This document shows, piece by piece, positions 53,532 to 56,857 of a stretch of 64,000 bases of DNA (within the stretch, counting starts at the first letter, position 1; each line of letters begins with the position of its first letter). Location: positions 62,001 to 126,000 of the forward strand of contig NZ_KZ319294.1 in NCBI RefSeq assembly GCF_002744755.1, read 5' to 3'. Source of the DNA: Leeuwenhoekiella nanhaiensis (GTDB lineage: Bacteria > Bacteroidota > Bacteroidia > Flavobacteriales > Flavobacteriaceae). Made by a program: the position numbers and the translations under genes. The notes beneath the pieces are model-generated. The model made no database searches, was not told the DNA's origin, and saw nothing but the letters and a program-made list of their open reading frames with translations.

Positions 53532-54454
53532 AACGTCCTGGATTTTAAAAGGAACTTTTCAGGAAAAAAACGGTATTCGGGAAAAGGCTCATTAAGCATT
53601 TCGACTTCCAAATTTGGATTAAAAACCACAGAGCAACCGCTTAAAATCGAGGCCGTTTTGATCAGTTTATCGCACCTGGCAAGAATGAGGCAATCAATTA
53701 GTGCTTCGCGGTTAACCTCGCGATGATTCTTTGCTGTAATGTGAATGGGTTTCCCGTTTTTAGAACGATTGATCGTTCTGCATAAAATCTGGCTTTTTCC
53801 GAGTTCAAAGGTTATATAATCGATGAAATTATGATCATCACTAGCCAGAAAAAATTGAATGTTTTGAGATTCATTTTCAAGCTCGGAAAGCAAGACCTCT
53901 TTTACCAGTTCATAAGAAACAGCAGGAGCCTCAGTAATTTTGTCTGTACCCCTATAGTGTACGCCTATCATACGCTTTGCTGTAAACTCAATTGCAGTGT
54001 AATTTTGTACAAATTCGGTAACTTCGGTATCCAATTCCAGATAGGTATTGAGCAGATAATTGGCTCGTTCCAAAGTTAAAGCCGAATTGTAATTCCAGGC
54101 CCTGTTCAAATCCAGATCTTTAAAAGACCGCATAACCGCATAATGCAGGAAGAATGGCTTTTGAGAATCATTTTTAAATTTTACGAATTCTGAAAAGCTT
54201 TTTGATCCTATTCTTTTCGACGGATTTCTAAAAATCACAAAAGGTTTTAAGCCCTCGGAGTCGCAATATTCAAGAATTTCAAGCAACCAAATAAAGTTTG
54301 CTCCAAAACCCATCTTGGAGAACACCTCAACGGCAAATATGCCTTTAGATTTATTTTTAAGGATAAGCTGTTGATTGCGCTGTAGGCGAAGATTAAAATA
54401 GTAATCTATCTCCCTTTGATATGCGGTATTCAGCCATCGTTTTATCGAACTCAT
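53528..54454 (-). CDS. NodZ/O-fucosyltransferase-like protein (putative fucosyltransferase)
   Basis: 308 residues. [16 protein letters not shown] near residue 167 matches the HxRxTD donor loop of NodZ/FUT8-type alpha-1,6-fucosyltransferases. [32 protein letters not shown] near 255-287 matches the C-terminal block of the same superfamily. I infer GDP-fucose or a related donor. The first ~120 residues are diverged. ATG start overlapping the neuB stop (ATGA); neuC follows with TTGA overlap. Confidence 0.68.
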
Positions 54455-55491
54455 TGAATATCGCTAAACTTGAGTTGAGCGTCTTCCGCAATAGCTCTTG
54501 CTGCTTTTTTACCCAGAATATCTTCAAACTGTTCAGCTAAAATTTCGCCCGTTCCCGGACGCTTTACCCAAATATTCGCTTCACTAAAAACCTCCCCTTT
54601 TTTAATGGACGCGATGGTACAAACGGTTGCAAATGCAAAATCTATGGTGACCTGTTCCTCCTTTGCCGGAGTTTTTTCGCCCCCGCGCATAAGCCAGATT
54701 TCCTTACTTGACCTGATGAGTTCGGCGCAGGCTTCTTCATCCATACTGCAAACGATATCCGGTCCGGTACGCTGCATATGATCGGTAAAATGCCGCTCTA
54801 AAATAGACGCTCCCAAAGCTACTGCTCCTAAACAGGCATTATTATTCAAGGTATGATCTGATAAGCCAAAAGGCACATCGGGAAAGGCCTGATGCAGTTG
54901 AGTCATCGCGCCCAAACGCACTAAATGAGTCGGGGTTGGATATAAATTGGTGGTGTGCAGCAAAGCGAAAGGTGTACCCGCATCCTTAAAAATCTGTACG
55001 GCTTTAGAAACACTTTCAAGTGTATTCATCCCGGTGCTGAGAATAACCGGTTTACCAAAACCTGCGATGTGCTTAAGCAGGGGATAATTATTGCATTCAC
55101 CCGAACCGATTTTATAGGCCGAAACATTCATAGCCTGAAGCCGGTTTGCGGCAGCGCGGGAAAAGGGTGTAGAGATAAATAGCATTCCCTTTTCTTCTAC
55201 GTACTTTTTAAGCGCAATCTCATCGGCTTCATCAAGCGCGCAACGCTTCATTATCTCATAAATAGAAACAGTTGCATTCCCCGGAATCACTTTCTTTGCC
55301 GCACTGCTCATTTCATCTTCTACAATATGCGTTTGGTGTTTAACCACTTCCGCTCCTGCCCGGTGCGCAGCATCAACCAGTTCTTTAGCGACCTGTAACG
55401 AACCTTCGTGATTGATGCCTATTTCGGCAATGACAAGTGGCGGGTAATCTGGTCCTATTTTGCGGTTTTCGATTTGGATGTATGGGTTCAA
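54451..55491 (-). CDS. neuB: N-acetylneuraminate synthase NeuB
   Basis: 346 residues. It condenses ManNAc with phosphoenolpyruvate to give Neu5Ac. TIM-barrel domain to about residue 275 ([102 protein letters not shown]), then an antifreeze-like SAF domain. The whole chain parallels meningococcal NeuB as I recall it, which favours Neu5Ac over legionaminic or pseudaminic acid. The start is TTG at 55489-55491; an in-frame TAA lies only four codons upstream, so no ATG is available. A (TTAATTG)6 tract begins 10 bases upstream. Confidence 0.94.
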
Positions 55492-55500
55492 GGGGATTTG

Positions 55501-55542
55501 TTAATTGTTAATTGTTAATTGTTAATTGTTAATTGTTAATTG
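55501..55542. repeat. perfect heptamer tandem repeat (TTAATTG)6
   Basis: Six exact copies of TTAATTG, starting 10 bases upstream of the neuB start codon (minus strand CAATTAA x6). It lies in the 5' region that would set translation or transcription initiation of neuB. Copy number could vary by slippage without changing any reading frame. Confidence 0.95.
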
Positions 55543-55566
55543 AAATTAAAAAAACATATCGAGAAT

Positions 55567-55722
55567 GTCACTTCGAGTGTTTGATTGAGGCTACAAGCCG
55601 AAAGCAAATGTATCGAGAAGCGTCGAGAACTAAAAAAATTCGAATAAAGAAGACTTCTCGATACAAATTAAGTTTCGCTATCGCTACACTTAATTCACTC
55701 GAAGTGACAAGGTCGAAGTGAC
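55567..55722. repeat. palindromic element A (142-bp cloverleaf plus partial half-site)
   Basis: The outer 13-bp perfect inverted repeat GTCACTTCGAGTG/CACTCGAAGTGAC (55567-55579 and 55696-55708) encloses three arms. Arm 1, 55580-55608, has TTTG/CAAA and GGCT/AGCC. Arm 2 has a perfect 12-bp stem TGTATCGAGAAG/CTTCTCGATACA (55609-55620 and 55654-55665) with a 33-base loop. Arm 3, 55666-55695, has AATTAAGT/ACTTAATT. A further GTCGAAGTGAC half-site follows to 55722. It lies just past the stop of the GIY-YIG gene and is repeated in the same orientation at 56041. Confidence 0.9.
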
Positions 55723-55733
55723 AACCAGTGACA

Positions 55734-56024
55734 TTATTTAAATCGCTTTTTAGCCAAATTAGGTAGTTTTTGATATTTCCCACTTATCAAGGCTTCCTTC
55801 TTTACCTGCGGCCAATTTTTAATCTTCTTCTCAAACTCGATTGCTATATCGGGCTCTGTAAATTCACAATAATAAACCAATTCAATCGGCCTTCTGCTGT
55901 ACGTATAGGAATTTTTATACCTCCCGGATTTATGTTGTTCAATCCGATCCCAAAGATTAGAAGTTATACCAGTATAGTAGGTTTTATCCCGGCACTTTAG
56001 AATATAAACACTATAAATTTCCAA
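55734..56024 (-). CDS. GIY-YIG nuclease, small single-domain (URI/UPF0213 type)
   Basis: 96 residues, essentially only a GIY-YIG domain: SVYILK at 5-10 (GIY strand), YYTGIT at 16-21 (YIG strand), catalytic Arg in LWDRIEQHK (R27) with H31, and metal-binding Glu in AIEFEKKIKNW (E65). The C-terminus is basic (KLPNLAKKRFK). The start is TTG at 56022-56024; an in-frame stop lies two codons upstream. It interrupts the neuA-neuB order and is flanked on both sides by 142-bp palindromic repeats, so I infer a mobile-element role rather than glycan synthesis. It is not a UvrC fragment. Confidence 0.88.
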   Translation of the reverse strand: MEIYSVYILKCRDKTYYTGITSNLWDRIEQHKSGRYKNSYTYSRRPIELVYYCEFTEPDIAIEFEKKIKNWPQVKKEALISGKYQKLPNLAKKRFK

Positions 56025-56040
56025 GAATTAAGATTTGTTT

Positions 56041-56196
56041 GTCACTTCGAGTGTTTGGTTGAGGCCAAAATCCGAAAGCAAATGTATCGAGAAGCATCTT
56101 GAACTAAAAGCATTCTAACTTCTAAGACTTCTCGATACGCCTGAAGCTCCGCTTAAGCTGTGCTTCAGCCACTCGAAGTGACAAAGTCGAAGTGAC
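56041..56196. repeat. palindromic element B (142-bp cloverleaf plus partial half-site)
   Basis: Same length and orientation as element A. Outer 13-bp inverted repeat at 56041-56053 and 56170-56182, arm 2 stem GTATCGAGAAG/CTTCTCGATAC (56084-56094 and 56128-56138) with a 33-base loop, arm 3 stem CTGAAGC/GCTTCAG inside 56139-56169, trailing GTCGAAGTGAC half-site to 56196. Arm 3 differs in sequence from element A yet still pairs. It lies between the neuA stop and the GIY-YIG start. Confidence 0.9.
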
Positions 56197-56197
56197 A

Positions 56198-56857
56198 CTA
56201 TTTAAAGTGATTCAAATACAACTCAGCCTTCTTAAAGTCGGCTTCCGTATCAATATCGATTTCGGCAAAAGGATGGTCAACAATCAGGGGATAGTTTTTT
56301 TCTCCTAGAAGTTTCCTTTGATTTAGTAAGGCTGTTTTGAAAATATAAAGCAACCCGTTTTCATAATACAAAGGCTCTAGATCCTGACTACGCTGACCCA
56401 TTTTATAATTGTAAGGTATAAATTGATGATTAGAAATGGTTCCCAATTTATGTTCATTTCGGGAAACGGTCATCAGGCTGTCGCAATCCTCTCGCTCAAA
56501 AACTGCAATAGCCTCTTTGAGAAGCCCTTTTGGTCTCAATGGATTTGTGGGCTGCAGTAAAATAACCGCATTGTATTTTTTTTGCAAGTGATCTACTGCA
56601 TGTTTCAAAGCTGTTACAACAGGCTCTTCATTACCCGCTAACGCATCGGGTCTTTTAATCACCTGAACTTCATTTTGAGCGGCAAAATCCAAAACAGCAG
56701 CGTCGTTTGAAGTGATTACTATATCGCTCAAACCATTTTTCAAAGCATATGTAATGCTATGGCCAAGGAGCGGTTTATCTCCTAATTGCCGCATATTTTT
56801 TCCAGGAAGTCTTTGCGAACCGGCACGTGCGGGGATTAAAACTAAGTAGTTTTTCAT
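56198..56857 (-). CDS. neuA: CMP-N-acetylneuraminate cytidylyltransferase NeuA
   Basis: 219 residues. It activates Neu5Ac with CTP. Nucleotide-binding PARAGSQRLPGKNMRQLGDKPLLGHSI is at residues 8-34, followed by VITSNDAAVLDFA, VILLQPTNPLRP, YENGLLYIFK and HPFAEIDIDTEADF (metal-binding acids). No C-terminal esterase domain. ATG start overlapping the upstream GT2 stop (ATGA). The stop codon is followed within two bases by the half-site that ends palindromic element B. Confidence 0.94.
   Translation of the reverse strand: MKNYLVLIPARAGSQRLPGKNMRQLGDKPLLGHSITYALKNGLSDIVITSNDAAVLDFAAQNEVQVIKRPDALAGNEEPVVTALKHAVDHLQKKYNAVILLQPTNPLRPKGLLKEAIAVFEREDCDSLMTVSRNEHKLGTISNHQFIPYNYKMGQRSQDLEPLYYENGLLYIFKTALLNQRKLLGEKNYPLIVDHPFAEIDIDTEADFKKAELYLNHFK

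Follow-up and report, generated by a model that had tools for sequence, protein, structure and literature searches.

Between a neuA-like gene and neuB in Leeuwenhoekiella nanhaiensis, a small GIY-YIG nuclease gene is enclosed by two copies of a palindrome. The question raised by this locus, which lies in the 64,000 nucleotides of DNA analysed here (the whole stretch is called the window), is whether gene and palindromes belong together and travel together, or are neighbours for some other reason.

A nuclease gene between two palindromic elements

The nuclease gene occupies positions 55734..56024 on the minus strand, uses a TTG start and encodes a protein of 96 aa with a PF01541 domain. An earlier note on this DNA described such a gene between two 142-bp elements of like orientation, and this description was borne out, the left element being located at 55567..55708 and the right one at 56041..56182 (no strand is assigned to the palindromic features). 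The two elements are 80% identical. With the edges included, the direct repeat measures 158 bp, also at 80% identity, and ends in an extra half-palindrome, TCGAAGTGACA, found at 55713..55723 beside the left element and at 56187..56197 beside the right element, the repeat ending at 56197. Downstream of the cassette lies neuB (54451..55491, minus strand, PF03102). Upstream lies a gene for a neuA-like cytidylyltransferase (56198..56857, minus strand, PF02348 or CTP_transf_3), which is taken as NeuA. Between neuB and the left palindrome, at 55498-55542, there is a perfect tandem array of the 7-bp sequence TTGTTAA in 6.4 copies.

Each element carries the perfect 13-bp outer inverted repeat that had been noticed before, and in the right copy this repeat extends to 16 bp. 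When folded as single-stranded DNA, the elements reach z -7.3 and -7.2, with 0 of 200 dinucleotide shuffles folding as well. The four-way structure proposed in the earlier note stands insofar as there is an outer stem with three arms, but its 'cloverleaf' is better described as an inverted pair of units of about 55 bp, because single-end copies are present in the genome and the units fold alone. The own genome contains 11 element matches, of which only the two in the window adjoin a GIY-YIG match; whole copies are found besides single-end copies (query 1-54, 82-142 and 1-53), the one-end-only matches being located at C2:430944, C8:131878 and C8:131945. In the window, the units have TGTCACTTCGAGTG at the start, TGTATCGAGAAG at the end and a hairpin arm within, and each of them folds by itself. 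Judged from this layout, each 142-bp element is most plausibly two TGTC-tagged REP-like units in inverted orientation, their tags pointing outward. The units of the left element would span 55566-55620 and 55654-55709 (reverse) with a spacer between them, and those of the right element, placed by register, 56040-56094 and 56128-56183. This inverted pair is presumably comparable to REPINs.

Two other identities of the element were rejected: an Rfam search returned no known RNA family up to E 1, and for a terminator role no terminator-like sites were called. Palindromes of the window's family are also found in other arrangements. At G000:C14:71559-72771 (L011), three tandem copies are spaced by approximately 500-570 bp with TATTTCG arrays between them and no GIY-YIG gene, the contig end falling within the third copy. 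At G000:C12:1-300 (L012), a near-identical palindrome end opens contig C12, adjoining an exopolysaccharide-type locus.

The 96-aa protein matches PF01541 with 56.6 bits (cut-off 22.6) over residues 4-73. This is its sole Pfam match, and the same search revealed no transposase domain. Neither a separate DNA-binding domain nor a NUMOD is present within the 96 aa, given the domain match at 4-73 and the compact model. The catalytic residues R27 and E65, which had been reported as kept, are invariant across alignments of 16 and 48 rows. The predicted structure is compact (mean pLDDT 89). A search with this predicted fold retrieves the UPF0213 structures 1zg2 first (E 3.8e-6) and 1ywl (E 1.8e-3), with Slx1 chains following after UPF0213 (E 1.2e-3 to 1.9e-2); by sequence, the UPF0213 structures are matched at 5.5e-21 (1zg2) and 1.3e-15 (1ywl). 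Slx1 is a nuclease that cleaves branched DNA (PMC6902002, available part), and ANKLE1, another GIY-YIG nuclease, cuts a cruciform junction (PMC10287932, available part). Bacterial stand-alone GIY-YIG domains have been grouped with Slx1, and the string 'palindrom' does not occur in the available part of that source (PMC1564403). In a codon comparison of six related cassettes, dN/dS ranges from 0.04 to 0.18 in 15 pairs, so the cassette protein is under purifying selection.

Pairing of the gene with its flanking repeats

Whether such a gene generally stands between repeats was examined with a motif-free comparison of upstream and downstream flanks, in which other genes and swapped flanks served as controls; site counts were compared with a uniform expectation. 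Searching named genomes with a profile built from 16 proteins gave 506 confirmed candidates, of which the best 80 loci were taken; 74 had full 300-bp flanks and were kept, while 6 were dropped because of short flanks. At E<1e-5, 60 of these 74 best-scoring loci share an upstream/downstream repeat, compared to 5 of 314 control genes (4 of 94 when only control genes with gaps of at least 80 bp on both sides are considered). At E<1e-3, the numbers are 65/74 for the loci and 18/314 for the controls (12/94 with gaps).

A phylum-wide sample gave a similar picture. The profile matches in 178 of 296 genomes, with up to 13 matches per genome. From these, 90 loci were assembled, 30 as returned by the tool and 60 picked from the listed matches with their flanks unseen beforehand; a few genomes supply two loci, and 2 of the 90 were dropped. 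The flank repeat is present at E<1e-5 in 65 of the remaining 88 loci and in none of 31 control genes; leaving out five loci that had already been seen, 60 of 83 are positive. A tag (C/T)GTCA occurs in both flanks of 65 of the 88 loci, compared to 25.0 expected from shuffled flanks and 5 of 31 controls. The enrichment of palindromes near GIY-YIG genes, on which the earlier note had let its reading depend, is thus found in both samples. At E<1e-5, the flank repeat is absent in 14/74 and 23/83 loci.

Pooling both samples gives 162 loci, three of them counted twice, of which 124 are positive (100 direct and 24 inverted); this total is one below the sum of the samples due to a borderline case. Own pairs of flanks contain direct copies with a length of at least 100 bp and an identity of at least 85% in 30/162 cases, swapped pairs in 0/965. 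Swapped flanks do match at times (57/361 for the named-genome loci, 43/965 for the pooled set), as some palindrome types are common to several loci. Other repeats flank the gene on both sides at three further loci of the own genome (L001, L002 and L004); at L006 this is seen by eye only. At L001 (1430-1960), the small GIY-YIG gene lies between genes read as trpB and trpA, and its flanks hold inverted TCATTTCCG-CGGAAATCT palindromes of a CGTC-like type. The pairing of a small GIY-YIG gene with a flanking repeat is general.

The pairing also extends beyond the group to which the earlier note had assigned such repeats: they do occur in Flavobacteriia, but the association of gene and repeat is far wider and reaches Alphaproteobacteria. 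The alphaproteobacterial evidence comes from a set of 26 loci fetched after tblastn against a plasmid collection (from 14/33, 3/36 and 9/20 records). The flank repeat is found at E<1e-5 in 14 of the 26, compared to 1 of 38 controls. Of the 16 loci retrieved with the L040 and Novosphingobium proteins (L175-L188, L202, L205), 13 are positive; L177 and L182 miss, each showing palindromes by eye on a single flank, and so does L186 with E 0.006. Of the other 10 loci (L194-L201, L203, L204), which include YazA, 1 is positive. Repeats of the CGTC/CCTC kind, e.g., CGTCATCCTCGGGCTTGACCCGAGGATCCA, bracket the gene in Azospirillum, Shinella (three loci), Rhizobium sp. CIAT894, Neorhizobium, Novosphingobium, Sphingobium (two), Sinorhizobium (two) and Aeromonas (one side CGTT). 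Overall, the flanks of the plasmid set carry CGTC, CCTC and TGTC tags, and most alphaproteobacterial flanking repeats are CGTC-type REPs. In Bacillus and Radiobacillus, the housekeeping relative yazA has a tRNA methyltransferase gene on one side and rsmI on the other, with no flank repeats at these two loci.

Besides being paired with a repeat, the enzymes are paired with particular repeat types, as palindrome type matches protein clade. The protein tree comprises 112 sequences, 96 of them labelled (the 16 unlabelled or tied rows were left out of the type count); along it, palindrome type changes 5 times, compared to a mean of 34.8 after shuffling, with 0 of 200 shuffles as low. The tree is built on 95 columns and 55 of its 109 inner branches are open, and the four motifs used for typing were drawn up after inspection of the sequences. 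Paralogs in the own genome differ in their palindromes (TCGAGTG at L022, TCGAGC-GTCGAGA at L043), and G004 and G010 each have two palindrome types at two paralogs. Since the types differ between paralogs within one genome, they do not merely follow the host.

Palindrome abundance was compared with gene presence among 31 genomes, i.e., the own genome and 30 relatives. A relative of the window gene, defined by at least 60% identity, is present in 8 of them. These 8 genomes have 108 exact GTCACTTCGAGTG sites, and 30 of them are no farther than 500 bp from a subfamily gene, compared to 0.037 expected under uniform placement, and all 9 subfamily genes have such a site within 500 bp; the other 78 sites stand away from the gene. 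The site counts and the gene controls rule out chance proximity of palindrome and gene. Gene-bearing genomes have 5-21 sites each, and 15 of the 23 genomes lacking the gene have none. The number of 13-mer copies tracks the subfamily gene, over all genomes (8 vs 23, p 2.5e-5) as well as in the genus alone (7 vs 6, p 0.013), kinship being ignored in both comparisons. Exceptions are G006 and G011, which have the 13-mer 10 and 17 times, respectively, and in which no subfamily gene was found; tblastn of the window protein against a fetched subset of their element loci gave nothing at E 1. At G011:C1:3602635-3603489 (fetched as L090), there are three consecutive GIY-YIG matches at 327-bp spacing.

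Mobility of the cassette and its explanation

The cassette is mobile. In five of the 8 gene-bearing genomes, the gene lies within a largely colinear operon of the sialic-acid type, at junctions that differ between genomes. The palindrome-gene-palindrome cassette is inserted at neuA|neuB in G000 and G004, at both neuB|neuC and the junction of neuC with a 468-aa gene (neuC|468) in G005, and at neuC|468 in G002 and G010, the stretch of G010 having no visible neuA. The neuA|neuB junction of G002 is empty, measuring 16 bp with no palindrome, and that of G005 holds a single diverged palindrome and no gene. Where neuC|468 is unfilled, it measures approximately 50 bp in G000; in G004 it spans approximately 136 bp and contains a simple tandem repeat. 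The cassette is located among unrelated genes in G007, G012 and G018, so that the window's subfamily alone occupies at least 6 distinct insertion sites. In G010 and in one cassette of G005, the stop codon of the gene directly abuts the palindrome (TAATGTCACTTCGAGTG).

A comparable case is found in Azospirillum lipoferum 4B, in which a GIY-YIG gene between two palindrome pairs separates sufB from sufC. In three Azospirillum relatives (92-94% identity) the sufB|sufC junction is short and both the gene and the CGTC palindromes are absent, and in Azospirillum sp. B510 it holds a different GC-rich hairpin. Mobility follows from the cassette being present at other junctions or elsewhere in related species, with empty sites alongside. 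No target-site duplication is readable at the neu or suf junctions. A fixed ancestral gene order, which in the earlier note would have spoken against a mobile element, is ruled out by the varying cassette positions and the empty neuA|neuB junction of G002. Its reading of a mobile unit of palindrome plus nuclease is supported by these positions and by the enrichment near the gene, and the unit indeed differs from a normal IS in having neither a transposase domain nor a readable target-site duplication.

Altogether, the locus is probably (at about 70%) a mobile or selfish unit composed of an Slx1-like GIY-YIG gene and two cognate palindrome copies, resembling the RAYT/REP arrangement with an unrelated enzyme. 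In such a unit, the palindrome would extrude as a hairpin or cruciform, either while DNA is being replicated or under negative supercoiling. The nuclease would recognize the extruded structure together with its sequence and cut at its base, after which repair or recombination could place a copy of the palindrome alone, or of the whole palindrome-gene-palindrome segment, at another site. Solo palindromes would then be non-autonomous copies left behind. We infer that the nuclease cuts its palindrome, and likewise where the cut falls and by which route copies arise. A GIY-YIG nuclease is not known to transpose DNA by itself.

An alternative that is unlikely, yet survives better than the others, is that the nuclease only homes, i.e., that a selfish nuclease gene inserts into resident palindromes spread by other means and duplicates its target. 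It is kept alive by loci whose flanks consist of host sequence such as tRNA parts and terminator hairpins. At L004 (1358-1845), the GIY-YIG gene is bracketed by a 55-bp duplication (98%) that comprises the 3′ end of tRNA-Phe and a terminator hairpin, and at L041 the flanks share a 104-bp stretch of 92% identity that includes a terminator and part of tRNA-Val. Both loci belong to a common branch of the protein tree with very long ends. At L006, a duplicated tRNA-Ala(GGC) 5′ half is visible by eye only (best piece E 0.28). These flanks suggest hairpin DNA as the shared target. Homing would also suit the excess of palindromes away from the gene over those adjacent to it (78/108). It does not suit the empty sites, as neuA|neuB of G002 and sufB|sufC of the three Azospirillum relatives lack such a palindrome, nor the finding that presence of the cognate gene predicts palindrome abundance.

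Further details were observed at two of these loci. L041 (1350-1877) has a second copy of the tRNA part, the terminator and the first bases of the GIY-YIG gene beside the intact gene. At L006 (1355-1740), a frame-broken GIY-YIG gene is located at tRNA-Ala(GGC), its start codon abutting a copy of the anticodon arm, and upstream there is a partial copy of the tRNA 5′ part into which a further hairpin is inserted.

Secondly, the palindromes may be moved by another enzyme, such as a RAYT, an IS200-like or other transposase, with the nuclease gene carried as a passenger between two of them. The association of GTAG REPs with RAYTs (PMC2817692, PMC3733652; available parts) offers a precedent, but this explanation is improbable here. 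The sole Y1 transposase found in the own genome, tried as a candidate partner, lies more than 500 bp from any palindrome of the four types; CGTC repeats are reported as not associated with transposase genes (PMC3733652, available part); and the clade-specific pairing would be left unexplained. Thirdly, the nuclease could be a domesticated caretaker, kept by the host to resolve palindrome cruciforms, the linkage being regulatory or protective. Purifying selection on the gene, the predicted Slx1-like fold and vertically kept relatives such as YazA beside rsmI in Bacillus and Radiobacillus agree with this. It is nevertheless very improbable, as cassette positions change, genomes hold up to 13 matches in a patchy distribution (178/296) and the relatives with conserved gene order are ones that have no flank repeats. 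Lastly, chance or a single locus inherited by shared ancestry would fit the one site common to G000 and G004, the other common to G002, G005 and G010, and the frequency of REPs in intergenic space, but the six or more insertion sites of the window's subfamily and the gene controls contradict it and leave it hardly any probability.

Relation to known mobile and repeat systems

The unit of nuclease gene and palindromes shares features with several described systems. Free-standing GIY-YIG homing endonucleases have the same catalytic domain and likewise are encoded by intergenic genes with filled and empty sites. The window protein differs from them in being, at 96 aa, too short for an additional DNA-binding domain, and its gene is flanked by repeats and has no single conserved target gene. 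UPF0213/YazA and Slx1 share fold and sequence family with the window protein; yazA, unlike the window gene, is found in conserved gene order without flank repeats (two loci), and eukaryotic Slx1, unlike the window protein, has a C-terminal RING finger (PMC1564403, available part). A classical insertion sequence differs by its transposase domain and by a readable target-site duplication, neither of which the cassette has.

The repeats themselves are closest to the CGTC REP superfamily. According to the available part of the 2013 description (PMC3733652), these palindromic repeats occur in at least 5 phyla, carry the tag CGTC, TGTC or CCTC, consist of an 8-9-bp stem, a 4-5-base loop and a CCA tail, occur predominantly as HH dimers, and 'lack a dedicated transposase', their mover being left open; GIY-YIG does not occur in its text. 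The window carries the tag TGTC, and the plasmid-set flanks CGTC, CCTC or TGTC. Several alphaproteobacterial flanks fit the stem-loop-tail description by eye, and inverted pairs are likewise present, with tags outward in the window, Azospirillum and Shinella. The window units differ in having an expanded hairpin arm in place of the 4-5-base loop and no CCA tail. Within the open-licence literature (bioRxiv preprints fall outside this scope), no paper linking GIY-YIG proteins to REP palindromes was found. Small Slx1-like GIY-YIG nucleases may well, at somewhat better than even odds, be the missing enzymes by which, in bacteria of different phyla, REPs of the CGTC/TGTC superfamily are mobilized. 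With a concrete enzyme candidate, the mover of CGTC-type repeats becomes directly testable. Moreover, if true, a function would be given to many small proteins annotated as 'GIY-YIG nuclease family', in view of the profile match in 178/296 genomes.

The most instructive comparison is with RAYT/REP units (REPtrons). The case for RAYTs rests on flanking REPs, coevolution and REP abundance following the gene (PMC2817692, available part). Here as there, a small enzyme gene stands between two REPs. The coevolution of enzyme and REP types finds its analogue in the tracking of protein clade by palindrome type. REP abundance follows the cognate gene in both systems, here with the orphans G006 and G011, and many REPs stand without a gene. 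The differences concern the enzyme, a Y1/HUH transposase there and a GIY-YIG nuclease here; the tag, GTAG there and TGTC (window) or CGTC/CCTC (Alphaproteobacteria) here; and the flanks, which often are long direct duplications here and inverted REPs there (PMC2817692, available part). If the preferred reading is true, the nuclease unit is a second REP system, in which an enzyme and a chemistry unrelated to those of RAYTs are at work and a structure-specific nuclease spreads hairpin DNA. The bargain between repeat and enzyme would then have arisen also with an unrelated nuclease.
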